Positions 17,101 through 34,634 of a DNA stretch of 34,915 nucleotides are shown piece after piece. The DNA is taken from positions 1 to 34,915 of the forward strand of contig NZ_AUCV01000057.1 of the NCBI RefSeq assembly GCF_000429945.1, given 5' to 3'. This DNA comes from Desulfogranum japonicum DSM 18378. GTDB lineage: Bacteria > Desulfobacterota > Desulfobulbia > Desulfobulbales > Desulfobulbaceae. Below the pieces are notes generated by a model, which was given only the letters and a program-made list of their open reading frames with translations, was not told the DNA's origin and made no database searches. The translations under genes were made by a program, and so were the position numbers. The first letter of the stretch is position 1; each line of letters starts with the position of its first letter.

Positions 17101-18529
17101 TTCTCATGGCCTCTGCTTCCTGGATCCTTGCCTTTAAACGGGAGATGGTGTTATCCAGGGATTTTTGCTTTTTCAGGGCATCTTCGTGTTTTTTGATACG
17201 TTCCTTTCGCTGTGCCTCGATATCACTGCGTTTTGCAGATAACTCTCTGATATTTTTTTCAATCTGGGAAAGTTCGTCATCCAGTCGTGCGTGGTATTGA
17301 GCTGCCAGACTGTCCATTTTGCGCTGTATGGGAGTAATCTCCTCACCAGCCTGGCTCAGGGCTTCTTTTTTAGTGGTTGCCTGGGCCTGGGTAGCTCGTA
17401 TGTCGGCGATAAAATCGGCAGCACTGATGGCGACATTTTCTCCCTGAACACGTTCTATCTCTTTTTGAGTGTCCCGCAGCTTTTTTTGCTGTTCAGCTAT
17501 TTCCTGGGCCTGGCGGAATTTTTCCACAGACAGGATATTGCTTTGTACGGTTTCTCCGGCGTTACCTGCCTCCAGGTGCTGCGCTTCAGCTTCTTCAAGA
17601 ACTGGAATCAGGGCGCTGCGCTTTTCAGCCACAGCCTGTTCCGCTTCCTGGAGCAGATGCGTTGCCTCACCAAGTTTCAGTTGCCAGGTTTCGATGTTCT
17701 CGTGGGCGCTGCGCCATTCCACGGCTGTGGCGTCAAAGTCGGCAATGCGCTCCTTCAAGTTGCGAACAGTATTGAGCTGGCTGATTTTACGCGGCCGTTC
17801 CTGCATTTTGCGCAGATCCTGTTCAATACGTTGCCGCAGGGTGGTTGCCGCATCCAGATCGGTTACACAGCCCAGGAAGAAACTGAGAAATTCTTCTTCA
17901 GAGCGAAATTTGAAGGCATCCTTGATACCGCCCTCTGTACGGGCAAAATCAACCTGGCGGTCAATGAGCCAGGGGTCCAGTCCAAGCTGCTCCAGTTTAT
18001 CACTCCATTCCTTTTGGCTGGTTGTCTGTTGGATACGGGGCAGCATGTAGTCCCGCACAGCTTTGTATGGTTTTTCCTGCTCCAGCAGCTCATCCCAGGA
18101 AGCACGCAGTTCATCGAACAGGTCTGCTGACTGGGCGATGAAAAAGGTTCGGTCGGTTTTATCGGGCATGGTACGGTGACGGTAGAGAAGCTGCCCGAGA
18201 ACCAGATGATCAACCGGTTCTGCTTCAAACAGGGTAGGCGGGGTGATCGTAGACAGGTCCAGCACGACAAGAGCCGGACGTCCCGGAATCAGATATTGTT
18301 CAAGGGTTTTATCTCCATCAGACTGCAGATATTGGACAAAGCGTTTGCTTTTAGGGCAGAAGACGCTCAGGATAAACGAGAGCAGGGTGGTCTTACAGGT
18401 ACCGTTAACTGCAAAGAGCACCCCATGATCTGTTTGTCCATCCTCCCTGAAAACAGGGACATATCCGTTTCGCAGCAGGTTGCCACCGGCTGTGATATCG
18501 CTTACAAAAATTCTACTGAGTCGATACAT
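14126..18529 (-). CDS. MukB/JetC-like SMC ATPase
   Basis: This 1467-residue protein has the layout of an SMC/MukB subunit: N-terminal nucleotide-binding half, long coiled coils (~270-640 and ~720-1200) around a hinge-like segment near 640-720, and a C-terminal half. The ABC signature GSGGE lies at ~1349 and Walker B 'AFLVLDN' at ~1384-1389. Two features are unusual: the P loop reads AVNGTCKTT (residues 40-48) with cysteine where a glycine is normal, and the residue after the Walker B aspartate is Asn, not Glu. The start at 18529 has GGAGAAG a few bases upstream; a longer frame to 18556 begins with an unlikely arginine run. It overlaps the MukE-like gene by 17 bases. Length matches MukB rather than the shorter typical JetC. 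Role: DNA-loop extrusion, in chromosome organisation or plasmid defence. Confidence 0.82.
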   Translation of the reverse strand: MYRLSRIFVSDITAGGNLLRNGYVPVFREDGQTDHGVLFAVNGTCKTTLLSFILSVFCPKSKRFVQYLQSDGDKTLEQYLIPGRPALVVLDLSTITPPTLFEAEPVDHLVLGQLLYRHRTMPDKTDRTFFIAQSADLFDELRASWDELLEQEKPYKAVRDYMLPRIQQTTSQKEWSDKLEQLGLDPWLIDRQVDFARTEGGIKDAFKFRSEEEFLSFFLGCVTDLDAATTLRQRIEQDLRKMQERPRKISQLNTVRNLKERIADFDATAVEWRSAHENIETWQLKLGEATHLLQEAEQAVAEKRSALIPVLEEAEAQHLEAGNAGETVQSNILSVEKFRQAQEIAEQQKKLRDTQKEIERVQGENVAISAADFIADIRATQAQATTKKEALSQAGEEITPIQRKMDSLAAQYHARLDDELSQIEKNIRELSAKRSDIEAQRKERIKKHEDALKKQKSLDNTISRLKARIQEAEAMRNALPMDEGEEPVHTLERLQAEHAGIDKRLTRVQGEIRTLEQNLQTENNRWRTSQEERSKGETQLALARERVKAEAEERLRLSSDSHIIRVAGSREINLTSADLISRFDDAMARSRTKVSEKTRAAMKLEQLLETLERTETLAADDQTMQLLAHYHQAGIAPEELKSYPDYLAEHYESAEQIATFIESDPGRFTGIMASSTHIMEKLQAVPVPPWLHRPVVISTPCEPEDISPISQTVIRPLSPEIYSKRHLTAVRDTHKEELAELNRIVADTENKLQEMEKASRALHAYRDKFPDRASVAALADSVTELETSQKQRTIAIQQAEEAMEKLKLRKNDLETQYRQVVDEAASMNQLLRQVEKWLKNYAGLAQWEEEVEQKQLDRLALEKSINNHIETLADLKEDDYRIAADISEQKILQKGLDERAGEVLRPQDVKLSKDERKAALSMDLNTLRRLHESAREDIRQMTHELGIDMLRKELDALEEKIAQRESRFEAFCRRSFYDNKKAEAWVGRSQSQREERQQELAKELETYKEANIRLESEIGHQQKELARVKAALTDRKFKGMKPDLTSEMLTEQDPDSLLHRLRAEKRKFADECERLATRCNALKEKQNILLTRHQDIRLVLAENKRFDAVWDENSPRHPWPDLLKEPDAETSPTSIEQLQQELEKMVITESRHRETVDAAQRRMKTAFDSFQIDLQSELFHSNLPAVVDELRTHDAESLGVQASELIQRCEDIARNLETDLEITQRFMDSLVEMLLQHSREYYQKLRGAAQEVLPEEVFIYGGKPILRAGTRLDFAKHQDVFRQSIENWLYELMQQGRLPEVNPRMGNCLGSELLYQLLGAASGRHTFGIRLLKCDDSGSKYEPVGKDLGSGGEALTIAVLLYALLISMRRRRRYSPYDARIPAFLVLDNPLGVCNRSDFLDAQLKVAGRLGLQCVYLTGINDRESLDLFELRVAIRKGDKQVEIDGNVYDCLEITEFNVEKQQQRAA

Positions 18530-19316
18530 TGGACTTCTCCTTCGGCGTCTTACCACGTGCTGTACTTTCTTCCTGCTCAGGTGAGTCTATCAAAAAATCC
18601 CGGAACGCATGGAAGGAATACACAATACCTTCACGCATAGCTGTCTGATAGCCTATTGTGGGCCTGTATTCAATATCTCCTCCAGGTTCTTCAAAGGCCA
18701 GGAGGTATCCTGTTTCAACCATATGCTCCAAAACTCTGGTTACCAGCCCCACCCAACTGTTCCCTGCTCCTGCACGCTGCCGGTCGGGGTTATCTTCCGG
18801 CATCTGTCGAAGGCGGTCTGCTACGGTTTTCAATTGCGGCAGCAGAATATCTTCATCTGGGTCCAGGGCGGCTTCCATGTGAATAAAACGCCGCAAAATA
18901 TCAATGACATCGGCAAGAATAACGGCTCCCAGGTCTTCGACTGGTGTATCCAGGTCTGCCTCAATGGGGAAAAACGCGGTGGCAATTGCGCAGTGAACAG
19001 GTAAAATTTCCGCTGCCTTGATTTCACGACGTGCCAGAAGTTTTCCGTAGTCACCCAGCGTGGCTGCAAAGAAACTGTCTGATTTTCTGGCTGAAAGTCG
19101 CAGGCCTCCCTCTTCCAGGGCCAGAAGCCGCAGGTCCATGGCCCTGAGCCCGGCCTCTACCTGACGACGGAAAGAATCCTGCGCCTGGAGGCGCTGGAGA
19201 AGTTCAGTTATTTCTGTTGTGTATGGGGCCAGTGCCCTCTTGCTGCCGTTACTGTAAATCAGGCTCAGATAGATGAGTCTGCTGACAGCATAGGTGGTTT
19301 CTGTATCTATATGCAT
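18513..19316 (-). CDS. MukE/JetB-like condensin subunit
   Basis: This 267-residue soluble protein lies between a kleisin-like gene and an SMC ATPase, the position of MukE/MksE/JetB. It is predicted to be a tandem winged-helix protein; residues ~185-235 ('VTRVLEHMVETGYLLAFEE' followed by a beta-like segment) read as a winged helix. The last ~25 residues are charged and disordered. MukE-type proteins bridge the kleisin and DNA and regulate the ATPase. I assign it mainly from gene order, size and fold impression; direct similarity is too low to be sure by eye. The stop overlaps the start of the SMC gene by 17 bases, so translation is coupled. Confidence 0.65.
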   Translation of the reverse strand: MHIDTETTYAVSRLIYLSLIYSNGSKRALAPYTTEITELLQRLQAQDSFRRQVEAGLRAMDLRLLALEEGGLRLSARKSDSFFAATLGDYGKLLARREIKAAEILPVHCAIATAFFPIEADLDTPVEDLGAVILADVIDILRRFIHMEAALDPDEDILLPQLKTVADRLRQMPEDNPDRQRAGAGNSWVGLVTRVLEHMVETGYLLAFEEPGGDIEYRPTIGYQTAMREGIVYSFHAFRDFLIDSPEQEESTARGKTPKEKSNVSTQ

Positions 19317-23330: not shown

Positions 23331-23359
23331 TTGACAGTGTCGCATGTTTTTAATATATC
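23331..23359 (+). promoter_or_regulatory. Promoter of the cobalamin-riboswitch operon
   Basis: TTGACA at 23331-23336 and TATATC at 23354-23359 are 17 bases apart, which places the transcription start near 23366, immediately upstream of the riboswitch. The 270 bases between this promoter and the divergent flavoprotein gene show nothing else I can name. Confidence 0.6.
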
Positions 23360-23365
23360 AGCCAA

Positions 23366-23526
23366 TGTTTCAGGTGCCTCATATGAGGTGAAAAGGGAAC
23401 CCGGTTTGAGTCCGGGACGGGCCCTCCGCTGTAAATGGTGACGACCGCTGCAAATTTGCCACTGACAACAATGTTGGGAAGGCGCAGCTGCTAGAATGAC
23501 CCATAAGTCAGAAGACCTGCCTGAAG
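23366..23526 (+). promoter_or_regulatory. Cobalamin riboswitch
   Basis: The core is easy to read: GGGAAcccGGTTTGAGTCCGG around 23396-23417, the CCGCTGTAA segment at 23426-23434, and the B12 box with AGTCAGAAGACCTGCCTG at 23506-23523. These are the conserved elements of the AdoCbl/MeCbl riboswitch class. CAGGTG at 23371 can pair with the tail of the B12 box region to close the aptamer. An intrinsic terminator follows 64 bases later, which indicates control of transcription rather than of translation: ligand binding should favour the terminator. Confidence 0.93.
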
Positions 23527-23589
23527 AAATATAGAAAACTGCTTCTGGCTAAAGGCGGGTTTCAAGATGTCCACAGGATAAAAAAGGGA

Positions 23590-23631
23590 AATCCCTGGAT
23601 AGACACGTTGTCTATTCAGGGATTTTTTTTT
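23590..23631 (+). terminator. Riboswitch-controlled intrinsic terminator
   Basis: AATCCCTGGATAGACA pairs with TGTCTATTCAGGGATT across a 3-base loop (16 pairs, one G-T), followed by nine T residues at 23623-23631. It ends 50 bases before the first gene of the operon and is the expected expression platform of the riboswitch. Confidence 0.92.
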
Positions 23632-23683
23632 GGCTGTTGATATCAACCTGCTCAACATGGCTCATACCTTCGATCGTGAGATA

Positions 23684-25687
23684 ATGGGGAAACATATCGT
23701 ATTCTGTTTGCTTTTTTTGTGTTGTCTGCCGGCAGCGAAAAGTTCAGGAGTGGGCCCCAGCCAGGTTCCTCCGAAGGAAACATCGAGTTCTGAAATAATG
23801 GTCCCGCAAATACCAAAACGCGTAGTATGTCTTGTTCCTTCAATTACACAGATACTGGTTGATTTGGGGCAACAAGAAAAGATAGTCGCCCTCTCACGTC
23901 AGGATCTTATAAACCACGCTTCTTTTCGGAAAAAAAGTACAGGCAGCTATTTCAAACCAGATACGGAAGCCATCAGACACAGTGATCCGGATCTGGTGAT
24001 TTGTTCTCCAAAGCATGCGGAGTATCTGAAGACGGAGCTGGACAGTACAATTCCCCTGTTGGTTATTACTGCCCAGTCAATGGATGAGACTTTTGAGCAA
24101 ATTCATCGGCTCGGCAAAATGTTTCAGTGTGAAGAAAAAGCCGGGGAAATTCTTGCACGTATACACAATCAACTCTCCCAGGTGGCTCAGCGGCTTGACC
24201 GCGAACATGATCTCAAGAAAAAACGGGTAGTGCGGGTTATGGCAGGGGATGCCCTTACAGTTCCAGGGGATGACTCTTTCCAAAACGAGATGATACGGGC
24301 AGCCGGAGGTATTACTGCCCAGTGGGGTGAAAACGGATTTGCAGTACCCATGGATCCTGAAATCTGGCAGGAGTTTAATCCCCAGGTCATCTATGGGTGC
24401 AAAGATAACGCTGACAAGGTCCGTCAACTCTTGCAGACAGAGCCCTACCGTAACGTGGAGGCCGTACAAGAGGGCAGAATCCATATGTTTCCCTGTCGAA
24501 TGACCTGCTATGCTTCAAGTATTACGGGAAATTTTGTGCAGTGGCTGGCAGCAGTGCTCTACCCGGATATTTGTGCCGATCCGCAAAAGGCGGTTACTGC
24601 AGATGCAATCCTCCGTCATACGCCGGTTACCTCAGGCCTGGACTATGTGCAGCATGCAGAAGTCATTGAGCACAGGCTGGCTGATTCCACATATAAATCA
24701 CTGGTTCTCACATTCGATACTCCACAGACAGTGCTCTCCACCTTCGAAGGCCTGCGTGAAAATATCAGGGGGTGCGGCAACACCTTTGTCCCCATGGCTG
24801 CCAGCCTTGGTCATATGCGTAACGGAGTGGAGCAGGTGAAGAAAACCCTGGCCAACAACCTGGGGTTTTCCGAACAGAGTTTCACTACCCTGATGACCGG
24901 GGCAAACATGGACAACCTGGCCGTGGTAAGCAGGGAGTATAAGGATCTTAAGGTGACTGCCATGGTAACCGGCGGAGTCAGGGGGAATGCCATGCGGCTC
25001 TCACGTGACACAGGGTATTACGCCTCACATGGCACTATCAATATAATAGTGGCCTCCAACCGGAAACTTTCCACAGCTGCCATGACCCGAGCAATTATTA
25101 CTGTGACCGAGGCCAAGACCGCAGCGCTTACTGACCTGGATATCAGAAGCGCGTATACGCCATGGCCAAACCAGGCCACGGGTACTGGAACCGATAATGT
25201 CCTGGTCGTACAGGGTGAAGGACCCTGGATTGAGTTTGCCGGTGGCCACAGCAAGCTGGCCCAGCTGATGGCCGAAGCCGTGCACGAAGGTGTGACCCAG
25301 GCTTTGGCCAGACAAAACGGCATCCTTGCCGACCGAAATATCGTGCAGCGTCTGTTTGAACGCGGATTGAGCCTTGAAAAATTGGTCCAGCATTTTGAGA
25401 GCGGTATGAATCCTCGCATCCTGGCCGCGAAATTGGAGAAACTTCTCAAGCAAAGCTACTATGCTGCTTTTGTTGAAGCTGCTCTTGCTGCATCTGATGC
25501 CGGTGAAAGGGGCTTGATGCGAGAAAGTGTTTTCTGGGATGAAGTCTGTGAAAATATCGTTGTAAAGCTTTGCGGCACTAAAAGAGCACCAGCTCTCTGT
25601 AATTCCAAGAGCATTCCACCCACCGTGGCCAAAGCCTTTGGCGCGCTTATAACAGGGATTGAATTTTCCGGGGAGTACCAGCCATGA
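23684..25687 (+). CDS. Exported BtuF-CbiZ fusion (corrinoid-binding protein / adenosylcobinamide amidohydrolase)
   Basis: The protein (667 residues) fuses two cobalamin-related domains. After a signal sequence ('KHIVFCLLFLCCLPAA'), residues ~40-310 are a BtuF-type periplasmic binding domain ('RVVCLVPSITQILVDLG', 'DPDLVICSPKH'). Residues ~325-540 match CbiZ, which cuts the amide that holds the nucleotide loop on cobinamide and pseudo-cobalamins: 'TGANMDNLAVVS', 'VTGGVRGNAMRL', 'GTINIIVASN', 'TEAKTAALTDLD' and 'ATGTGTDNVLVVQGEG'. A helical C-terminal extension of ~120 residues is unassigned. I start at the ATG at 23684 because upstream starts (TTG 23630) fall in the terminator T tract. It is the first gene after the riboswitch and overlaps the next by ATGA. 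CbiZ is normally cytoplasmic, so an exported form is notable. Confidence 0.88.
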   Translation: MGKHIVFCLLFLCCLPAAKSSGVGPSQVPPKETSSSEIMVPQIPKRVVCLVPSITQILVDLGQQEKIVALSRQDLINHASFRKKSTGSYFKPDTEAIRHSDPDLVICSPKHAEYLKTELDSTIPLLVITAQSMDETFEQIHRLGKMFQCEEKAGEILARIHNQLSQVAQRLDREHDLKKKRVVRVMAGDALTVPGDDSFQNEMIRAAGGITAQWGENGFAVPMDPEIWQEFNPQVIYGCKDNADKVRQLLQTEPYRNVEAVQEGRIHMFPCRMTCYASSITGNFVQWLAAVLYPDICADPQKAVTADAILRHTPVTSGLDYVQHAEVIEHRLADSTYKSLVLTFDTPQTVLSTFEGLRENIRGCGNTFVPMAASLGHMRNGVEQVKKTLANNLGFSEQSFTTLMTGANMDNLAVVSREYKDLKVTAMVTGGVRGNAMRLSRDTGYYASHGTINIIVASNRKLSTAAMTRAIITVTEAKTAALTDLDIRSAYTPWPNQATGTGTDNVLVVQGEGPWIEFAGGHSKLAQLMAEAVHEGVTQALARQNGILADRNIVQRLFERGLSLEKLVQHFESGMNPRILAAKLEKLLKQSYYAAFVEAALAASDAGERGLMRESVFWDEVCENIVVKLCGTKRAPALCNSKSIPPTVAKAFGALITGIEFSGEYQP

Positions 25688-28600
25688 GATTGCATGCAGC
25701 ATTTTTGTATTTCGTCCTTTTATTTTTTACTCTGCTGGTGTCTGCATATGCTGCTCAGCAGGCCAGTGGTATCACCTTTCTGGGCGGATCGTCCTACTCG
25801 TATAAAATAAGCAAGGCACTGGAAAAGGTTCGGCAGGATCCTGCTGCCTCCCAGGTAGAGCTGACTTATTTTACAGAAGAGGATCTGGCCGCCAATGCCA
25901 TTGATCCGGATATCATCTCCCGCTCCCAGGTCATCATCATTGATGATATGTATAGAAGTCATCGGGAATATGTCCTTAAGCAGGTAGACTTTTCAAAAAC
26001 AAAGGTTTTCGGCCTCTCCACAGTGGCCAACAACCCGGATCGGATCACAGCCGATGACAAGGTCAAGGCCTATGCAAGACCATTGACCCGCAACAACCTG
26101 AGCAATCTGGTTCGTTTTCTGATGCATCGGGAATTGGGCATCAATATCAGCTACAACGCGCCGCAGATTGTGCCAAAAACCGGCATCTTTCACCCTCTAA
26201 GCCCTGAGGTGTTCCAGGATTTTGCTTCCTATCTTGCCTGGTACAAGGAGGCCGGGCTCTATCACAGCAACGGCTCCTGGGTCGGCATTCCGGAGATGTC
26301 AACCTATGTGTACCCTGGTGAGACGGGTACGGTGGTCGCAAATCTTGTGCAGAAACTTGAAACTGCAGGAATGAACGTCCTGCCGGTGTATTCCTATCCA
26401 GCTTCTCTGGCCCTGGAAACGTATTTTTTTGATACAGAGACCTCGAAGTCCAGGGTGGATCTCATTGCCTCCATGGCTTTCAAGTTTTCCCCGTCTGATG
26501 TGGAGAATACCCGGCAGATGTTTGAGCGGCTCAATGTGCCGATTCTCAATCCCTTCAGAGTACATTTTTTGACAATTCCAGAATGGCGGCAGGATCTCCA
26601 GGGTGTTGGTCCCATGGAGGTCAGTTACGCCATGAACAATCCCGAGGTGTTTGGCCTGATCGAACCTTCGGTCATCGGTGGCAAGGTCAAGCAGACAGAT
26701 GAGCTGTCCGGCAAAGACCTGTACACCTATGACACCATTGACGAGAATCTTGACTTTTTCATTACCCGTATCAAAGCCTGGCTCAGGTTGAAGACTCTGG
26801 CAAACAAAGATAAAAAAGTGGTCATCATGTTCTGGAACCACACCCCAGGCAAGCAGAATATCGGTGCGACCTATCTCAATGTCTTTGACAGCCTGGAGAA
26901 GATCCTGGCCCGTCTCAAATCCGAAGGCTACACAATAGACGGGAAACTGCCCAGCCAAAAGGAAATCCAGGAACTGATCCTGTCAACAGGGCGTAATATC
27001 GGCTCCTGGGCTCCCGGAGAGTTGGACAGGCTCCTGGCAAAAGGTCAGGCAATACGGTTACCCATAGACCAATATAAAAAATGGTATTCTGCTCTAGACC
27101 CGGAGTATCGCAGTCTGATTGAAAAGGATTGGGGTGCCCCTGAAGAGGGTAAAGTTATGACCAAAAACGGGGAGATTATTATCCCCTGCGTTACCCTGGG
27201 TAATGTGCTTCTGGTACCCCAACCCTCCAGGGGCTGGCATGATGAACCCACTAAGCTCTATCACTCCACCACCCTCTGGCCCCATCACCAGTACACAGCG
27301 TTTTATCTCTGGCTCACTCAAGGGTTCAAGGCCGATGCCCTGATCTCGTTGGGTACCCACGGTACCCATGAGTGGCTGCCGGGAAAACAGGCCGGTTTGA
27401 GCAGATCCTGCCCTCCTGAGGTGCTGATCCAGCATTTGCCGAACATCTATCCCTACGTAATGGATGATATTGGGGAAGGCGTGCAGGCCAAGCGTCGGGG
27501 CAGAGCTGTGATTATCGACTACCTTATTCCTGCCATGAAAAAGGCTGGGGCGTATGAAGAATACGCAGATCTGACCGAGCTGATCTCCGGGTATAACCAG
27601 AGCGCAGCAATACATCCGGAGCTGGCGGAAAAGAAATTTGAACGGATCAGTTCCATGATTGCGCGTTTGGGGCTGTTGAAAGATCTGAAATTGGATCACC
27701 TGGATGATGCGGCTCTGGAAAAGGTGGAACATTACCTGCTCGAGATCAATGAGGCGACCTTGCCTTACGGACTGCATACTTTTGGAATCTCACCCGAAGG
27801 ACAGGAACTGCAGGATTTTGCCGAGTTGATTGTTGACCGCAATCCTGAGTTGGATATCGAAGAGGTAAAGAAGAAGTTAGCTCTGTGTGACCGGGAAATG
27901 AATCACCTGGTTAAAGGGCTCAGCGGTGGCTATGTGGTTGCAGGAGAAGCCAATGATCCTCTGCGAAACCCTGAAGCCATCCCCACTGGTAACAATTTTT
28001 ACGGGTTTGATCCATCCAAAGTACCGTCACAGGATGCCTGGATACTGGGAAAAGAACAGGCCGAACAGCTCATTGAAAAATATAAAAAAGAGCATGGCTC
28101 CTTTCCTGAAAAGATCGGTCTTGTCTTCTGGTCCATTGAGCTGCAACGCAATGAAGGCACCCAGGTTGCAACTGCCCTGCACCTTCTCGGGATGAAACCT
28201 GTCTGGGATAAGAACGGTAAGGTACAAGGTGTTGAAGCCATTCCCGGTGAGCTTTTGGGCAGACCCAGGATTGATGTGCATATGCAGGTTTCCGGTCTGT
28301 TCCGGGATAATTTTCCAAGTCTGATCCTTCTGTTGGATGAGGCTGTACAACAAGCGTCCCAGCTGCGGGACGTGGAAAATTTCATCTCTCTGCATAATGA
28401 AAAGATAAAATCCTATCTGCTGGAAAAAGGCTACGACGAAGAACAGGCTGATACACTGAAATCCCTCAGGGTCTTTTCCAACGAACCCGGCTCATACGGC
28501 AACACCATCGAGGATCTGGTTCCTGCTTCGGGCACCTGGGAAAACGATGATGAAATTGCCGATGTCTTTATCAACTACGTCTCCTTTGCGTATGGGAAAG

Positions 28601-29571
28601 GGATCTGGGGAAAACCCCTGAAGTCAGCCTACAAGAAAAATCTGGAAGACGTGGATGTGACCATGCATACCAGGTCTTCAAATATCTTCAAGAGCCTGGA
28701 TACGGACGGTGTTTTTTCTGAGCTTGGCGGCCTGGCCCTGGCAGTAAAAAGGGTGAGCGGTTCATACCCTGAGGTGATCCTCTCCAACCAGGCTGATCCT
28801 GATGCTGCCTATGTGGAAGACATTGAAACCGCCATCGGCAGGGAACTCAGGTCGAGGTACCTGAATCCGAAGTGGATCGAGGGGATGAAAAAAGAGCATT
28901 ATGCCGGAGCCAGGGAGATGAATCGTTTTGCAGAGCATCTCTGGGGCTGGCAGGTGGTTACTCCTTTTGCTGTTGATGGTGCCAAGTGGCAGCAGGTGTA
29001 TGAGGTCTATGTGCAGGACAAATACGGTCTCGGTCTCAAGGAATTTTTTGATGAAAATAACCCCTGGGCACAGCAATCCATGGCTGCCCGTATGCTGGAA
29101 GCGGACCGAAAGGAATACTGGAAGGCTCCCGAGGAAGTGAAAAAAGATCTGGCCAGAACCTATGCCCTGAACGTGATCGAAAAAGGCGTAGCCTGCTGCG
29201 AGCATACCTGCAACAACCCCATGCTCCAGAAATTCGTGGCCAACATTGTTTCGCTGTACGGGTTACTCACCCCGAAAGAGCTGGAGCAGTTTAAAATGAC
29301 CATCGCTAAAGCGGTTGGCAGAACCCAGGCAGAGCATGAGGCAGACCACCAGAAGATGCGTCAGGCTCTGGACAAGGCTTCTGAAAAAAACAGGCAGGAA
29401 GAGTCGGTTAAAGCCAAAGAGAATGAACAGAAACTGCAAGGCTATGAGATGGTTGAACAACCGGCAGAGAAAACCGAAGTCACCTCTTCCGGAAGCTCCT
29501 GGATGGTGATGGCTATTGTGGCATTGACTCTTGGTTTACTTGTTTTCGGCTGGAAAAGGAGGAAGATCTGA
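25684..29571 (+). CDS. CobN-like, membrane-anchored periplasmic chelatase subunit
   Basis: This 1295-residue protein has CobN/magnesium-chelatase H family features: 'LGTHGTHEWLPGKQAGLS' near 555, 'YPYVMDDIGEGVQAKRRGRAV' near 590, and the long glycine- and aspartate-rich C-terminal half. CobN inserts cobalt into hydrogenobyrinate with CobS and CobT ATPase partners; neither is here. Residues 1-24 are a signal peptide ending 'SAYA', and 'SWMVMAIVALTLGLLVFGW' near the C terminus, followed by RRK, is a membrane anchor, so the body faces the periplasm. That matches the HmuS-type proteins of haem-uptake loci, for which metal removal has been proposed. A charged coiled region (~1215-1260) precedes the anchor. 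It overlaps both neighbours by one to four bases. Confidence 0.88.
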   Translation: MRLHAAFLYFVLLFFTLLVSAYAAQQASGITFLGGSSYSYKISKALEKVRQDPAASQVELTYFTEEDLAANAIDPDIISRSQVIIIDDMYRSHREYVLKQVDFSKTKVFGLSTVANNPDRITADDKVKAYARPLTRNNLSNLVRFLMHRELGINISYNAPQIVPKTGIFHPLSPEVFQDFASYLAWYKEAGLYHSNGSWVGIPEMSTYVYPGETGTVVANLVQKLETAGMNVLPVYSYPASLALETYFFDTETSKSRVDLIASMAFKFSPSDVENTRQMFERLNVPILNPFRVHFLTIPEWRQDLQGVGPMEVSYAMNNPEVFGLIEPSVIGGKVKQTDELSGKDLYTYDTIDENLDFFITRIKAWLRLKTLANKDKKVVIMFWNHTPGKQNIGATYLNVFDSLEKILARLKSEGYTIDGKLPSQKEIQELILSTGRNIGSWAPGELDRLLAKGQAIRLPIDQYKKWYSALDPEYRSLIEKDWGAPEEGKVMTKNGEIIIPCVTLGNVLLVPQPSRGWHDEPTKLYHSTTLWPHHQYTAFYLWLTQGFKADALISLGTHGTHEWLPGKQAGLSRSCPPEVLIQHLPNIYPYVMDDIGEGVQAKRRGRAVIIDYLIPAMKKAGAYEEYADLTELISGYNQSAAIHPELAEKKFERISSMIARLGLLKDLKLDHLDDAALEKVEHYLLEINEATLPYGLHTFGISPEGQELQDFAELIVDRNPELDIEEVKKKLALCDREMNHLVKGLSGGYVVAGEANDPLRNPEAIPTGNNFYGFDPSKVPSQDAWILGKEQAEQLIEKYKKEHGSFPEKIGLVFWSIELQRNEGTQVATALHLLGMKPVWDKNGKVQGVEAIPGELLGRPRIDVHMQVSGLFRDNFPSLILLLDEAVQQASQLRDVENFISLHNEKIKSYLLEKGYDEEQADTLKSLRVFSNEPGSYGNTIEDLVPASGTWENDDEIADVFINYVSFAYGKGIWGKPLKSAYKKNLEDVDVTMHTRSSNIFKSLDTDGVFSELGGLALAVKRVSGSYPEVILSNQADPDAAYVEDIETAIGRELRSRYLNPKWIEGMKKEHYAGAREMNRFAEHLWGWQVVTPFAVDGAKWQQVYEVYVQDKYGLGLKEFFDENNPWAQQSMAARMLEADRKEYWKAPEEVKKDLARTYALNVIEKGVACCEHTCNNPMLQKFVANIVSLYGLLTPKELEQFKMTIAKAVGRTQAEHEADHQKMRQALDKASEKNRQEESVKAKENEQKLQGYEMVEQPAEKTEVTSSGSSWMVMAIVALTLGLLVFGWKRRKI

Positions 29572-30320
29572 TGGTAGAAAAATTGTGGATAAGTGGGGTG
29601 ATTGTGGCCTTTCTTTCATTTGGGATCAAGGCCGGTCTGGGGATTGGTTCTAAAATGTTCAACCCCGCTGTCACCAGGATGCAGGCTGCGCTCTTTTTTA
29701 TCACATCCCTTGTTACCTACATGGCTCTGTTTGCCGGACTCTATCTGGTGGTAACCCGGTTGAACCTCATTGCCTATCTCGACCGGTTATCCCATTTGCT
29801 CCAATATGGCATGTCTGTGCATATTGCTGTGGCTCTAGGGCTGGGCGTGTGGGGGATTAAACTGCTCCTGAAGCCTGAAAATATCCAACAGTCAGGGTCA
29901 AAAGCAGGGCTTCTGCTGATGCTGCCTTGTCCCGTGTGTGCGGCAGTCATCCTGCTGAACCTTACCCTGGCGCTTTCCCTGTCCAAGATGTCCCCTTTGG
30001 CAACGACCCTGTTTCTGTTTGCCCTGTTCTGGACCATTATTCTTCTTACTCTGCTTGCACTGGCTGCTATTCGTGGCAGGGCCGGTGTGAATAACGGGTT
30101 CCTTGGCGCCTCAATGGTACTTATTGCCATCTATTTCCTGGCCACGGTGCTTATCGCGCCCATTTATCCGAAAATCAAACCTGCTTTTGCCATGGCAGCC
30201 TCCAATAACCCAATCAGCCGGATGGACCCTCATTCCACAGTCATCCTGTGTGTATGCTGCCTGATACTGACTGGCGTTGGTTTTGCTCGGTTTCAATTAC
30301 GTAAAGGAGAAGTTTCTTGA
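29571..30320 (+). CDS. DUF2162-like multi-spanning membrane protein (HmuT-like position)
   Basis: The 249-residue protein has about six or seven hydrophobic helices. A small loop-helix segment near residues 120-128 contains 'LPCPVCAAVI', where the two cysteines of CPVC sit next to a membrane segment, as in metal-moving P-type ATPases and other metal channels. It is the kind of protein that follows CobN-like genes in archaeal and bacterial clusters, with unknown function. I infer a membrane partner, possibly a metal or ligand channel, of the anchored chelatase. Translation is coupled: TGATG joins it to the previous stop, and AGGAGGAAG precedes the ATG. Its own stop overlaps the TTG start of the next gene. 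Confidence 0.75.
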   Translation: MVEKLWISGVIVAFLSFGIKAGLGIGSKMFNPAVTRMQAALFFITSLVTYMALFAGLYLVVTRLNLIAYLDRLSHLLQYGMSVHIAVALGLGVWGIKLLLKPENIQQSGSKAGLLLMLPCPVCAAVILLNLTLALSLSKMSPLATTLFLFALFWTIILLTLLALAAIRGRAGVNNGFLGASMVLIAIYFLATVLIAPIYPKIKPAFAMAASNNPISRMDPHSTVILCVCCLILTGVGFARFQLRKGEVS

Positions 30321-30934
30321 ACCTGTTTGCCGCATTTCAAACCGTACTCTATACCATTTCCACTGCGCTGCTCTATCCGGTGGTAATCTGTCTTCTCTTG
30401 CTTTGTCTCTGGTTGCTCATATACACAGGGGGATTTTTCGCCGAATGGATTAAACGGCGCACCCTGACCGGTGATGTGGAACATGACATGGAGACAATTC
30501 ACCTCAAGAAAGAGCTGCCATCCAGCCTGATACCCGGTCTGCCACTGAATGTGACCTCCTACGCTGCAACATTGTCCCGTCTGGTGCAGGAAAACAGTCT
30601 GTTTTCCCTGGAAAAAATAGAATCTCTGAACCAGAAAAAACAATTGGAGATGTTCAAAGAGGTGGATCGGATCAGGCTTATTGTCCGCATCGGTCCCAGC
30701 CTTGGCCTGATGGGAACGTTGATACCAATGGGTACCGGTCTTGCCGGACTTACCCAGGGGAACATGGCCCAGCTTTCCTCCAGCCTGATTCTGGCGTTTA
30801 CCACCACTGTTGTAGGATTGGCCTTAGGCATTACTGCACATTTTTTCTCTGTAATAAAAGAGCAATGGGCCATGGATGATCTCAGGCAGATCAACCTGAT
30901 AACCGAAGCCATGGTAAAAGGCCACCTTGAATAA
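30317..30934 (+). CDS. MotA/TolQ/ExbB-like proton channel protein
   Basis: This 205-residue protein has one N-terminal membrane helix (~10-40), a cytoplasmic loop, and two C-terminal helices with the family signature 'RIGPSLGLMGTLIPMGTGLAGL' (~123-145) and 'LSSSLILAFTTTVVGLALGITAHFF' (~152-178). ExbB/TolQ/MotA proteins form the proton channel that powers TonB, Tol or the flagellum. The start is TTG, supported by AAGGAG seven bases earlier and by overlap with the previous stop (TTGA). The stop codon lies inside the left arm of the palindromic element that follows, so the last two or three residues may come from that element. Confidence 0.87.
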   Translation: MNLFAAFQTVLYTISTALLYPVVICLLLLCLWLLIYTGGFFAEWIKRRTLTGDVEHDMETIHLKKELPSSLIPGLPLNVTSYAATLSRLVQENSLFSLEKIESLNQKKQLEMFKEVDRIRLIVRIGPSLGLMGTLIPMGTGLAGLTQGNMAQLSSSLILAFTTTVVGLALGITAHFFSVIKEQWAMDDLRQINLITEAMVKGHLE

Positions 30935-31055
30935 TTGCTTTTTCGTCCAATCTCGGCGTTATGCTCAAAAAAATTATCCTCGAAATATCAGCTATATGTC
31001 TGTGGTAATTTTTCTCGCATGCCTTGACCTTGAACGAAAAATCTAATTATTCAAG
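30926..31055. repeat. 130-bp imperfect palindromic element (MITE-like)
   Basis: The ends CTTGAATAATT and AATTATTCAAG are exact inverted repeats. The match continues inward: CTTTTTCGTCCAA faces TTGAACGAAAAAT, and further in AAAAAAATTAT faces GTAATTTTTCTCGC, near a central ATATCAGCTATAT. It fills the only large gap of the operon and includes the stop of the ExbB-like gene. No gene lies inside. As RNA it would form one long hairpin. Confidence 0.7.
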
Positions 31056-31097
31056 ATACCCAAAAGACGATTCCATTGTACAGGAGGAGAAAAGCGT

Positions 31098-31451
31098 ATG
31101 AAATTTATGGCCAGTTCCCAGCCCGCCAGGTTCCGCCGAACTGCAGGGCAGGATCCGATGAACGGGGTCGCGAACCTCTTTGATGTGGCCCTGGTTTTTA
31201 TTGTTGCTCTCTTGCTCTCGCTGATGGCTACTTTCCAGATTCTGGATTTTTTTAACCCGGACAGTGAAATCACCATCATGAAGAAGGTCAAGGACCAGTG
31301 GCAGATCATCACCAAGAAAGGGAAAGAAGTCAAGGTCAAGAAGGTGACAGACAAAACCGTTGGCGGAGATGAAGGATTGAAACTGGGCACGGCATACAAG
31401 CTGAAAGATGGTCGTGTCATATACATCCCAAATGAAGAAACTCCCAAATGA
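31098..31451 (+). CDS. DUF2149 / ExbD-like small membrane protein
   Basis: This 117-residue protein has a short basic N terminus, then 'DPMNGVANLFDVALVFIVALLLSLM' (~19-43): a single membrane helix with an aspartate at its cytoplasmic side, like the proton-carrying aspartate of ExbD/TolR. The periplasmic part (~50-117) is beta-like and lysine-rich. DUF2149 proteins pair with MotA/ExbB-like genes beside CobN-like genes (HmuV in hmu loci). Start: AGGAGGAG ten bases before the ATG; an ATG three codons on is less well placed. The stop overlaps the next start in ATGA. Confidence 0.85.
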   Translation: MKFMASSQPARFRRTAGQDPMNGVANLFDVALVFIVALLLSLMATFQILDFFNPDSEITIMKKVKDQWQIITKKGKEVKVKKVTDKTVGGDEGLKLGTAYKLKDGRVIYIPNEETPK

Positions 31452-33073
31452 GACGGCTCATGAAAACAGTCTTGCGATGCCTCCTGGCCACAGTCTTTCT
31501 TTGTATCACCGTTTCCGCTCTGGCCGGGACAACCTCCGTAAATGGCCAATCCCTTACAATCGCTCTTGTTCATTTCAAGGTTCAGTATAAAGAACCGGCA
31601 CGAAACCTGGAAGAGTTAAAAAAGCTTCATCGTGAGGCAGCTGCCAAAGGTGCAAAGATCATTTTTAACACGGAGCTGGCACTAACCGGCTACTCCTTTA
31701 GCTCTCGTGAAGATATACGGCCTTTCACCCAGACCGTTGACAGTCGCCTTGTTAGAGAGATAGCGGATCTGGCAAAAGAGCTTGCTGTGTATATCGGCAT
31801 CACCTTTCCTGAGCGGGATGTGCAGACCGACAGCTTTTATAACGCAGCAGCTGTTTTTTCACCTCAGGGGAAACTGGTCTGCAATTATCATAAGATCTAC
31901 GGGGAAAAACGTTGGGCCCGCCCCGGCAGCCCATATCAGAACAACCTGTTTCTGACCCCCTGGGGCATGGTCGGGGTGGTCATCTGTGCAGACAGCTATT
32001 TTGACCTGATTCCCAGGACACTTGCCCTGAAAGGGGCAGATCTTATCTGGGTGCCGGCCAATTGGCCGCCAATGGGGCAACTCTCTCCAGTTGATATCTG
32101 GAGTATCCGTGCCATGGAAAACGGCGTGTATCTGGCTGCCTGCAACCGAACAGGCAAGGACAAGACCATGGACTGCAGCAAGGCCGAATCTGCAGTGATT
32201 GCACCTGACGGAACACCTCTGGTCAGTCGATCATCCGAAGAATCCGCTCTGCTCTTTGCAAACATTTCTTTGGATGAAAATGGGCAGATCAGCAAAATGC
32301 AGCGTAAGCAGAAAATGGGGACTCGGAATGTCGCCTTGTATCGGCAATTGTACCTTGATCCATGGACTGAAAACCTGACCATGTATTATCAGCTTCCTGA
32401 TCCGGGAAAAATACTGCTTCATAGTCTTACCTCAGCCCAAAATCCTCTGGATATTGGTGCTATAGAGGCACAGGTGGCAGCGGAATCCTCCCCTTCTCCA
32501 GCTCTCTGGCTTCTTCCCCAAACAGGCGTAGATGTACTCAACAAGGAAAAACTCCAGGCAATTGCCCGGTCATATAACTGCGCCTTTGCACTTTCAGTGA
32601 GATCTGAACAGGGGAATGTATCAGAGCTGTTGATCACAAAAGAAGGCATCCAGAGCTTTACCGACGCAAAGGGTGAACTCCCATACAGGTTGCTTCGATT
32701 CGGACCGGCAGCAGTTGCCATGGTGCCACTTAACGAATTGCGTCACCCTGAGCTTGGAGTTGTCCTGGCCAAATTGGGCTGTGACCTGGTGTTGGTTTCA
32801 GAGCCGGAACTCTCTGCTTTAGATATACGTCTTGCCAAAGTCAGAACCATTGACAATTTCGCGATTGCTGCCAGTGGTTCAAACAGGGCGGTGATAGCAC
32901 AGATGAAAGGTGTTCACGGGGATATACAGGTACAGATGTCGGACAATGGAAGATCTTGTGTTCTTGAATTGGATACCGTGGAAACCCGATCCAAGGAATT
33001 TTATGATCGTGTCGATTTTGATGTCCTGCTTAGGGACGATAAAGGAGAATTGAAGAATGAATACGTGCAGTAG
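31448..33073 (+). CDS. Exported tandem nitrilase-superfamily protein, second domain degenerate
   Basis: The 541-residue product starts with a signal peptide ('LATVFLCITVSALAG'). Residues ~32-290 are a carbon-nitrogen hydrolase with the catalytic triad visible: Glu in 'FNTELALTGYSF', Lys in 'NYHKIYGEKRW', Cys in 'VVICADSYFDL'. Such enzymes hydrolyse amides or nitriles. Residues ~320-535 resemble a second copy in which 'LWLLPQTGVD' has Gln for Glu and 'VAMVPLNELRHPELG' lacks the Cys, so it should be inactive. Exported nitrilases are uncommon apart from the apolipoprotein N-acyltransferase Lnt, which this lacks the membrane helices for. In this operon the likely substrate is an amide side chain or the nucleotide-loop amide of a corrinoid, which is inference. 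It overlaps both neighbours. Confidence 0.85.
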   Translation: MRRLMKTVLRCLLATVFLCITVSALAGTTSVNGQSLTIALVHFKVQYKEPARNLEELKKLHREAAAKGAKIIFNTELALTGYSFSSREDIRPFTQTVDSRLVREIADLAKELAVYIGITFPERDVQTDSFYNAAAVFSPQGKLVCNYHKIYGEKRWARPGSPYQNNLFLTPWGMVGVVICADSYFDLIPRTLALKGADLIWVPANWPPMGQLSPVDIWSIRAMENGVYLAACNRTGKDKTMDCSKAESAVIAPDGTPLVSRSSEESALLFANISLDENGQISKMQRKQKMGTRNVALYRQLYLDPWTENLTMYYQLPDPGKILLHSLTSAQNPLDIGAIEAQVAAESSPSPALWLLPQTGVDVLNKEKLQAIARSYNCAFALSVRSEQGNVSELLITKEGIQSFTDAKGELPYRLLRFGPAAVAMVPLNELRHPELGVVLAKLGCDLVLVSEPELSALDIRLAKVRTIDNFAIAASGSNRAVIAQMKGVHGDIQVQMSDNGRSCVLELDTVETRSKEFYDRVDFDVLLRDDKGELKNEYVQ

Positions 33074-34634
33074 AGTGCTTCACCATACAATCAGGCTGGT
33101 CAGCAAGTCCCTGGCGATATTTTTCAGTGTTCTCCTTTTCTTTTCAGCAACGACCAAAAAAACCTTTGCGGCACATGAGCACAGTCAGCATGATGTACCT
33201 GCCACTACTGAGGAGATGGTTGTTGTTGCTGATAAACTTGATGATTTTGTTCGGAAGAACCCTTCGCAGGTGGAGTGCATGGGGGCTGCGGAAATTGAAT
33301 CACGCAATTTTTTGCAGGTTCAGGAGGTACTCGGAGCCATGCCGGGAGTAGATATCACCTCTGATTCAGGAGGACTTGGTACCCGGATCTCCATCCGTGG
33401 AGGAGGAGGTTCAGGGGCCGTATTGGTTCTCATCGATGGCCGGCCCGCTTCCACCATGCAATATGGCGGAGTGGATCTGAGCAGTATCCCCATTGATATT
33501 GTAGAAAAGATCACTGTTTTCAAGCCGCCTGTACCTGTGTGGTTGGGGCCTGACAGCGCTGCAGGAGCTATCTACATCGAGACCAGGAAAAAGAAACACG
33601 ATACCTATGAGAAGAAAGGTAAAATCAGGGCAACTGGAGGATCCTACGGATTTGGTACCCTGAGTGCAACAGGTCAGCTCGATACCGAATCCAGTCAATA
33701 TCTGGTTTCCGGAGGGGCGTCACACAAAGACGGCACACGAGACAACAGCCAAAAGGACCAGGGGCACCTGAACCTGGGGTATACCTATAAAGAAGATGGC
33801 AGGGAGTTGCAGGTTAACGGAAAGGCATACATCTCGGATCACGGTATCGCCGGCCCCACCTATAACCCAACGCCCGATGCCGAGCAGCGGTATGAAAAGG
33901 CAAGCCTTGATCTGCAATATAAAGGGTTCACAGACGACGCCGATTATACGCTGAAAGGGTGGACAGACGCAAAACGGTTGGATGAAACTTCGCAGAGTGG
34001 AGAAAAATCAAAGCTGGATACAGCCACGGCAGGGCTGGGTTCTGATTTCTATTTCAGCGTTGATGACGACGATAACGAACTGAGAATAGGTGGACAATTT
34101 GAACAAAGCTGGGTGGACCATACATTGTCCGGTGAGCATGATAGAAGCAGTGTTTCCACCCACTCTGAGTATAATATCCGCCAGGAGTTCTCTGTATACA
34201 CCCTGGGTGGCCGTGTCGATTATACCAATGATTTTGATTTCTCGCCCGGCGGCCATCTGGGAATGAGCCATGAATTTTCCGAGACCACGCAGGTCAAGGC
34301 GAATATCGGGTATAGTGAGCACGTTCCCACCTTCAGCCAGCTGTATCAGCCAAGCCATGGAGCCATTGACCAGGTCCGCGGGAATCCCGATCTAGACAAG
34401 GAAAAAATTTTCTCTATGAGCCTTGGCGTTGAACAGGATATTTTTGACCGACACACGCTATCTGTTTCATTGTTCAGAACAGATTCCATGGATCTTATTA
34501 AATATCAGCGGGATGACAATAATATCAGCAGTCCGTTGAATATCGACCAGGCATACAAACAGGGGGTTGAAGCCACTCTCAAATTTGTACTTTCCGATAA
34601 GCATAACGACATAATTATTTATAAAAAACATTGA
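33057..34634 (+). pseudogene. TonB-dependent receptor, truncated by an IS element
   Basis: The reading frame begins with AAGGAG seven or more bases before the ATG and overlaps the nitrilase end by 17 bases. Residues 1-38 are an export signal; a His-rich segment (HEHSQH) follows. The plug domain is at ~50-185 ('EVLGAMPGVDITSDSGGLGTR', 'RISIRGGGGSGAVLVLIDGRP', 'PVWLGPDSAAGAIYIETR'), a BtuB-like outer-membrane receptor. The barrel begins well, but the frame ends after 525 residues with 'DIIIYKKH', in sequence that looks like insertion-element end rather than barrel. Relatives run to 600-700 residues and end in an aromatic residue. The receptor probably brought a corrinoid or other tetrapyrrole across the outer membrane and is likely inactive in this strain. 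Confidence 0.8.

Follow-up and report, generated by a model that had tools for sequence, protein, structure and literature searches.

The question raised by this locus is what an operon under cobalamin control does with proteins resembling those of a haem-iron system. The DNA analysed (the window) is one whole contig of Desulfogranum japonicum DSM 18378 (C50, 34,915 bases; the 5.8-Mb genome comprises 124 contigs), in which a cobalamin riboswitch and a terminator are followed on the same strand by seven genes, encoding a BtuF-CbiZ fusion, a CobN-like protein, a DUF2162 protein, an ExbB-like protein, a DUF2149 protein, a nitrilase and a TonB-dependent receptor. The evidence obtained from sequence comparisons supports a corrinoid instead of haem as the substrate, in line with the preliminary description of this DNA: it comprises the riboswitch, the CbiZ domain, the BtuB-like receptor, the loss of two of the three HmuS haem ligands and the recurrence of the module across the phylum. 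Tentatively, and with somewhat less than even confidence, the operon is read as a B12-repressed module that dismantles corrinoids in the periplasm and ends in the release of cobalt.

Structure and control of the operon

The riboswitch and terminator of the preliminary description were both borne out. The aptamer scored 118.1 bits against an RF00174 gathering score of 31.5, and none of 200 shuffles folded as well as the hairpin (-29.5 kcal/mol), which is likely the expression platform of the riboswitch. Thirteen cobalamin riboswitches lie over the cut-off in the D. japonicum genome, and all three of its CobN-like proteins sit in riboswitch regions, the riboswitch of contig C18 being located ~11 kb upstream. 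The seven gene families proposed earlier were likewise recovered by Pfam (in gene order, PF01497 with PF01955, PF02514, PF09930, PF01618, PF09919, PF00795 and the Plug domain PF07715), with the qualification that the receptor gene is truncated. Adjacent genes overlap at every junction but one, where 163 bases separate the ExbB-like gene from the DUF2149 gene, and signal-peptide-like N-termini were recognized by eye in the fusion, the CobN-like protein, the nitrilase and the receptor (Table 1).

Table 1. Coordinates of the operon features and of the adjoining insertion element in the window
Feature	Position	Strand	Basis
Cobalamin riboswitch aptamer (RF00174)	23355..23538	+	118.1 bits, E 2.9e-29
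Intrinsic terminator hairpin with T run	23583..23631	+	-29.5 kcal/mol, z -6.97
Exported BtuF (PF01497)-CbiZ (PF01955) fusion	23684..25687	+	Pfam; start codon and signal assigned by eye
Exported, C-terminally anchored CobN/HmuS-superfamily protein, 1295 aa	25684..29571	+	PF02514, 1065.6 bits
DUF2162 polytopic membrane protein with PCPVC motif	29571..30320	+	PF09930
MotA/TolQ/ExbB-like proton channel protein	30317..30934	+	PF01618
DUF2149 protein	31098..31451	+	PF09919
Exported nitrilase-superfamily protein, two halves	31448..33073	+	PF00795
BtuB-like TonB-dependent receptor, C-terminally truncated	33057..34634	+	TIGR01779 top NCBIfam match
IS630-type transposase fragment, off contig end	34686..34915	+	NF033545, HTH_23

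The open reading frame (ORF) of the fusion opens at a TTG codon (23630), and its likely start is the ATG at 23684, directly after which the signal-peptide-like stretch begins. The CbiZ domain (24713-25294) scored 166.8 bits against a PF01955 cut-off of 27; the BtuF part scored 19.1 bits against the NCBIfam BtuF equivalog cut-off of 234 and matched the broad PF01497 alone. The protein resembles the cobinamide amidohydrolase CbiZ in its PF01955 domain, which shares 36% identity with the genome's solo CbiZ, and differs from it in being exported and fused to a BtuF-like domain. CbiZ chemistry yields cobyric acid. Across 395 Desulfobacterota genomes, CbiZ was found in 81, as 90 ORFs of which 53 are at least 600 amino acids (aa) long. 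In loci sampled from 20 of the 28 genomes with such a long ORF and without a DUF2149 match over the cut-off, all 20 long ORFs contained both domains, and same-strand ABC transporter genes adjoined the fusion in 8 of the 20, so the fusion also accompanies BtuFCD-like sets.

The exported nitrilase exceeded its family cut-off clearly (125.5 against 23.2 bits), and E76, K149 and C180 of its first domain, which we take to be the catalytic Glu-Lys-Cys triad, are invariant across 18 aligned rows. An N-terminal hydrophobic extension is present in four of these rows (the window, L031, L160 and L070). In a structural model with a pLDDT of 89.5, the first domain is amidase-like, and the best structural match was to an amidase of Pyrococcus solved together with the primary amide glutaramide; this model fits a predicted hydrolysis of corrin side-chain amides. 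Such nitrilases occur in 18 of the 395 genomes at E 1e-40. The 17 loci outside D. japonicum contain CobN (10), CbiZ (7) and a riboswitch match (6), and 13 of them have at least one of CobN, CbiZ, BtuC/BtuD, BtuR and BchD/BchI, as read by eye from the table of neighbours; no corrinoid or radical SAM neighbour was found in L162, L164 and L175, and L163 has a radical SAM protein alone. A radical SAM/SPASM-like protein also adjoins the corrinoid nitrilase of D. japonicum outside the window (L022:15682-16722), with a homologue in 8 of the 17 other loci.

For the receptor, BtuB was the top match in both NCBIfam (TIGR01779, where this truncated gene scored 104.3 bits against a cut-off of 599.7) and the PDB. 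The 525-aa ORF matches the Desulfospira joergensenii receptor (629 aa) over residues 45-507 of the latter, with 64.6% identity; 3' of the homologous part it consists of unrelated sequence, followed by a transposase fragment at which the contig ends (34600-34915). This 76-aa fragment matched HTH_23 and, with 39 bits and below the cut-off of 100, NF033545. An IS630-type element thus interrupts the receptor gene, and because the ORF ends in unrelated sequence next to the IS630-type fragment, the operon's own receptor is probably non-functional in this strain. Other TonB receptors are encoded on contigs C18 and C14.

The CobN-like protein and its membrane partners

The solved structure closest to the CobN-like protein is HmuS (9d26, 496 bits), ahead of CobN (9uk9, 440 bits), and the protein remained below the NCBIfam CobN equivalog cut-offs (912.2 against 1619, 808.3 against 1248 and 656.9 against 822.05 bits). 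It has an N-terminal hydrophobic segment and a C-terminal hydrophobic helix with a basic tail. HmuS has been reported as a haem dechelatase, and, as described in the available parts of that source (PMC12583661), the HmuS/HmuTUV system of Bacteroidota shares with the window a TonB receptor, an exported and anchored CobN-superfamily protein, an ExbB-like protein, a DUF2149 protein, a small membrane protein occupying the place of DUF2162, and the residues Met79 and His538. The window adds to these a B12 riboswitch, the BtuF-CbiZ fusion, the nitrilase and a CPVC motif, and no HmuY-like gene was found among the Pfam matches of the operon.

The two systems also differ in residues implicated in haem binding. 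Compared with three Bacteroidota HmuS controls, the haem ligand His254 (HGR motif) is Phe in the window protein and His1209 (LSLDHxxEFMGG) is Gly, so that, judged by its residues, this protein differs from haem-type HmuS. The comparison was extended to 67 periplasmic-type rows, that is, proteins of at least 1000 aa whose best match was the window CobN, the window included. Both positions are other than His in 65 of them (including one gap at His1209), and both are His in the same two Acidobacteriota loci, L067 and L068; the residue at His1209 is Asp in 60 rows, Gly in four and a gap in one. The superfamily His538 (GTHG) is kept in all 67. N- and C-terminal hydrophobic segments were both over the threshold in 54 of the 67 rows, while neither end was in any of 20 cytosolic-type rows. 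In a quick tree of 77 rows, which carried long-branch warnings, HmuS and the Acidobacteriota rows formed one group (SH-aLRT 99), with the window's apart. A methionine-rich insertion was considered as an HmuS discriminator and dropped, as methionine counts did not separate the groups (6 Met in the densest 100 residues of the window protein; 8, 9 and 25 in the controls).

Two observations on this family stand on their own. Met79 is conserved in 58 of the 67 rows despite the loss of its haem partner His254 (window 25684-29571), and the Acidobacteriota proteins with HmuS-type His254 and His1209 (L067:2828-7831 and L068:9992-14083) lie outside Bacteroidota.

A third type of CobN-like protein, BtuS, was proposed for metalloporphyrin salvage (Rodionov 2003, as cited in PMC6460266). 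According to the portions of PMC6460266 consulted, both Bacteroides fragilis members are predicted to be exported, as is the window protein, which differs in being tied to corrinoid-specific enzymes.

With respect to the membrane partners, 37 of 38 aligned DUF2162 rows have the motif PCPxC (CPVC in the window protein); a CxxC is lacking in two of the three HmuT controls. As a clean mark against HmuT the motif partly fails, since the third control, from Aureibacter, has CYLC. The DUF2162 structural model is helical; a kinship to a known metal permease or CcdA-like fold was not retained, as Foldseek gave no match at E <=0.001 and the best VIA Z of 7.6, to a helical protein, has little meaning. 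The window DUF2149 belongs to the same family as the DUF2149 gene of the hmu operons (PF09919 in the hmu controls). A plasmid of Runella slithyformis (L136:4563-12597) encodes a CobN-like protein, ExbB, DUF2149 and a weakly NicO-like protein within a hydrogenase hyp cluster, which suggests a nickel version of the module; this nickel link was set aside, as the NicO/DsbD_2 and HoxN-type matches of the Runella protein in the DUF2162 slot all stayed below threshold and the protein lacks a CxxC.

Distribution and genomic context

A scan of named genomes for the CobN-like protein identified 64 loci, the best of them in D. joergensenii (76%), where the gene order from fusion through receptor, including the nitrilase, is identical. 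Directly behind that operon lies a second DUF2162-ExbB-DUF2149-CobN set (L031:19104-23819), and in L033, L036 and L038 two CobN-like genes are found close together.

DUF2149 was matched in 48 of the 395 phylum genomes, over the cut-off in 42. Besides D. japonicum, 41 genomes exceeded the cut-off, and 37 of them supplied the 40 regions surveyed (G012, G043, G072 and G136 were left out). Riboswitches were searched with a covariance model built from 13 D. japonicum riboswitches, among them that of the window, and were counted by script when within the operon or <=800 bases upstream; in the seven loci compared, the model agreed with Rfam at 13 of 13 places. On the question, raised by the preliminary description, of how often a riboswitch precedes such genes, one was found on the operon strand in 23 of the 40 loci and on the opposite strand, over the same stretch, in none. 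Eighteen operons start <=900 bases from the end of their stretch, with a riboswitch in 6; the remaining 22 have it in 17. Same-strand upstream riboswitches in L119 and L132 fell outside the scripted count because of antisense ORF calls and would raise it to 25 of 40; L105, L122 and L124 were among the loci in which none was counted. Fourteen of 31 close relatives from named genomes have a riboswitch (24 of the 31 start at edges), and none of the three annotated hmu loci (L137, L138 and L140) gave a match. The relatives are thus not, as a haem role had been expected to entail, devoid of riboswitch or CbiZ and always accompanied by haem receptors. By the same script, the 40 stretches contain ExbB (39), CobN-like (35), DUF2162 (34), receptor (26), fused BtuF-CbiZ (15) and CbiK-like genes (8) and no nitrilase; since these counts vary, the gene set is not fixed.

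Two related loci have been described. On pSZ77 of Geobacter (Trichlorobacter) lovleyi (L135), the cobN-exbB-exbD-tonB cluster corresponds to TBDR-DUF2162-ExbB-DUF2149-CobN beside bzaF/cobT, and its exact biochemical role is stated as unknown in the portion of PMC3403914 seen. Two riboswitch matches lie upstream of its receptor, resembling the B12 control in the window, and the difference is that neither CbiZ nor a nitrilase is annotated within the 21.8 kb covered. In B. fragilis NCTC 9343, an Hmu-like operon lies behind a cobalamin riboswitch, for which a role in cobalamin metabolism was suggested in 2023 (PMC10100974); that note is short, and its accessible parts do not mention CbiZ, the nitrilase, the spread in Desulfobacterota or the residue differences. 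The same source treats the HmuV-type (DUF2149) protein as diagnostic of haem transport, and the present finding goes against this use. B12 elements and a candidate cobalt carrier, cbtX, have been reported for delta-proteobacteria (PMC545781, seen in part). No publication describing this operon was recognized in a literature search that covered few subscription journals. HmuS, BtuS and the 2023 note on Hmu-like operons are prior art, to which the corrinoid enzyme set and the spread in Desulfobacterota are added here.

Elsewhere in the D. japonicum genome, the C18 region combines a riboswitch, a DUF3450/ExbB set, BtuF- and BtuC-like genes, an ATPase recognized by eye and receptors with CobN, BchD/BchI-like subunits, the solo CbiZ, BtuR, a radical SAM protein and a nitrilase. 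This CobN has no signal or anchor and passes the TIGR02257 cut-off (964 bits), and the C18 nitrilase is 39% identical to the window's over nearly its full length. Because the trio of CobN, CbiZ and nitrilase occurs twice, in a cytosolic form with BchD/BchI-type ATPase subunits and in an exported form with an ExbB-like channel, it is read as one pathway with two power sources. Contig C14 has a riboswitch and encodes CobN-like and CbiK-like proteins. Contig C56 encodes BtuC- and BtuF-like proteins (below the NCBIfam cut-offs) with an ATPase recognized by eye, as well as cobB and cbiD over NCBIfam cut-offs and CbiC; owing to these three genes, D. japonicum probably follows the anaerobic route to the corrin ring. 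CobT and a ThiC/BzaF-like gene follow another cobalamin riboswitch (L021:2245-5135), the latter product being 66.7% identical to the annotated T. lovleyi BzaF yet passing the NCBIfam ThiC cut-off. The absence of BtuCD noted in the preliminary description consequently holds within the window but not in the genome, where C18 and C56 supply BtuF/BtuC-like proteins with an ATPase; similarly, no CobS/CobT or ChlI/ChlD partner is found among the seven operon genes, but BchD/BchI-type chelatase subunits exist on C18. As a separate observation, a late-type chelatase set (cytosolic CobN with BchD/BchI-like subunits) occurs in a genome carrying genes of the early-cobalt anaerobic pathway, within a large corrinoid region that also has a Ton-like complex (L021:10189-20000 and L022:1-18254).

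Proposed cobalt release and its alternatives

In the dismantling pathway that we infer, both for its catalytic steps and for the direction of metal movement, the order would be loop, amides, metal and metal transfer. Low adenosylcobalamin would permit read-through of the terminator, and a B12-type outer-membrane receptor would admit cobamides. These would be held by the exported BtuF domain while CbiZ removes the nucleotide loop, and the exported nitrilase would probably strip at least one primary amide from the side chains. The anchored CobN-like protein could then bind the corrin and release cobalt; the ExbB-like/DUF2149 proton channel would power it, a task that falls to an AAA+ motor in cytosolic chelatases, and the CPVC protein DUF2162 may hand the cobalt inward for de novo corrinoid synthesis.

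What the product might be was approached through ring synthesis, with CbiC as its marker. CbiC is present in 37 of 42 DUF2149 genomes, compared with 162 of the remaining 353 (odds ratio 8.7, p 1e-7, uncorrected for phylogeny) and with 15 of 28 genomes that have a long CbiZ ORF (>=600 aa) and no DUF2149 (p 0.002). The five DUF2149 genomes without it are G043 and G136, which have short DUF2149 fragments, G086, which has CbiD, and G148 and G338, of 81% and 78% completeness; among the 35 high-quality genomes, CbiC is found in 32 and CbiD in one more (G086), while the other two, G043 and G136, have nothing but fragments of DUF2149. No FecCD-family (BtuC) permease was detected in G054, G242 and G341 (98-100% complete), in a search that did not include CbrT, BtuM and CbtX. 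These three (L106, L119 and L125) have the riboswitch, BtuF-CbiZ, CobN-like, ExbB-like and DUF2149 genes, CbiC and CbiD, and G197 and G012 gave weak FecCD matches only. Neither CbiM nor NicO was found in G054; G242 and G341 have CbiM. Since ring-makers carry the module, three of them have no detected FecCD permease and G054 has no detected CbiM or NicO, we favour a product other than an ABC-imported corrin, cobalt being the obvious candidate. The earlier proposal that the process need not involve normal B12 import gains from these three genomes and loses from the two BtuFCD-like sets of D. japonicum.

Several points weigh against cobalt release. We know of no activity for any B12-type CobN-like protein, and cobyric acid, the CbiZ product, is useful intact. 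The association with ring synthesis is not phylogeny-corrected, and ring auxotrophy does not give a sharp contrast with CbiZ genomes lacking DUF2149, 38 of 52 of which have CbiC (p 0.12, no significant difference from 37 of 42). Other importers or cobalt carriers (CbrT, BtuM, CbtX) lay outside the permease search, and this genome holds BtuFCD-like sets on C18 and C56. The receptor gene is broken, the Foldseek search of the DUF2162 model yielded no recognizable fold, and DUF2162, present in L106 and L125, was not found in L119. The window protein, like most rows, retains the HmuS ligand Met79 (the Aureibacter control has Arg), so a tetrapyrrole metal may still bind at the head site. According to the part of PMC6771967 consulted, the cobalt of corrins resists removal unless the ring is destroyed, which makes metal removal the boldest step. 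Lastly, B. fragilis mutated in both btuS1 and btuS2 could still release protoporphyrin from haem (PMC6460266, seen in part), and the dechelatase role of the relatives is therefore disputed.

A close rival, which we regard as possible though doubtful, is periplasmic cobamide remodelling for ring salvage. BtuF-CbiZ would produce cobyric acid from foreign cobamides and no metal would leave the ring; the CobN-like/ExbB/DUF2149/DUF2162 set would relay or translocate the intact cobalt corrin, or pass it to BtuFCD, and the corrin would be rebuilt with the native lower ligand. This agrees with established CbiZ chemistry, with the ABC transporter genes beside 8 of 20 fusions in loci without DUF2149, and with a genome that has CobT and the ThiC/BzaF-like gene under a riboswitch, and BtuR and CbiZ elsewhere. 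Salvage would help ring auxotrophs most, yet 32 of 35 high-quality DUF2149 genomes have CbiC, and no FecCD permease was detected in three DUF2149 genomes that possess both the fusion and the CobN-like gene; moreover, a dechelatase-superfamily protein is left without a reason.

An improbable alternative is metal insertion or correction, in which the CobN-like protein would load cobalt into scavenged cobalt-free or mis-metallated corrins in the periplasm, with proton force in place of ATP. CobN is indeed a cobalt inserter, but insertion requires an ATPase partner, which is absent from the operon, and free periplasmic cobalt would be needed. The CbiK-like gene within the operon at 8 of 40 loci is compatible with insertion, as is the production of cobalt-free corrinoids by some purple sulfur bacteria (PMC6771967, in the part seen), but HmuS, the closest relative of known function, is reported to act in the removing direction. 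A haem-iron system of HmuS type merely located behind a B12 riboswitch is very improbable: it would explain the gene families shared with hmu operons, the kept Met79 and, in the consulted portion of PMC6460266, the poor growth of the B. fragilis btuS1 btuS2 double mutant on haem iron, but the btuS1 single mutant showed no significant growth defect there, and the haem reading is strongly disfavoured by the missing His254 and His1209, the CPVC motif (with no CxxC in two HmuT controls and CYLC in the third), the lack of an HmuY-like gene among the Pfam matches and the absence of riboswitch matches at the three annotated hmu loci.

Returning to cobalt release, a broader version of it may be entertained with some doubt, namely that the operon is a proton-powered harvester using corrinoids as cobalt ore and that the gene set is a general device for obtaining metal from tetrapyrroles: iron from haem, cobalt from corrinoids and possibly nickel in Runella. 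If cobalt is really removed, this would be the first known enzymatic cobalt removal from a corrin, a chemically startling case of an enzyme doing what chemistry reportedly cannot do without destroying the corrin, and corrinoids would become a cobalt source in sulfidic, cobalt-poor habitats. Even if the ring is salvaged, the operon would represent an extracytoplasmic, B12-regulated remodelling route. In addition, part of the large unassigned pool of CobN-like proteins gains a function-bearing context.

Upstream of the operon, the window contains a 1476-aa ORF with no Pfam match at E 0.001 (14126-18556) and a gene (9158-11488) for a single protein in which NMT1/THI5-like and SBP_bac_3 binding domains are joined to a GGDEF domain.

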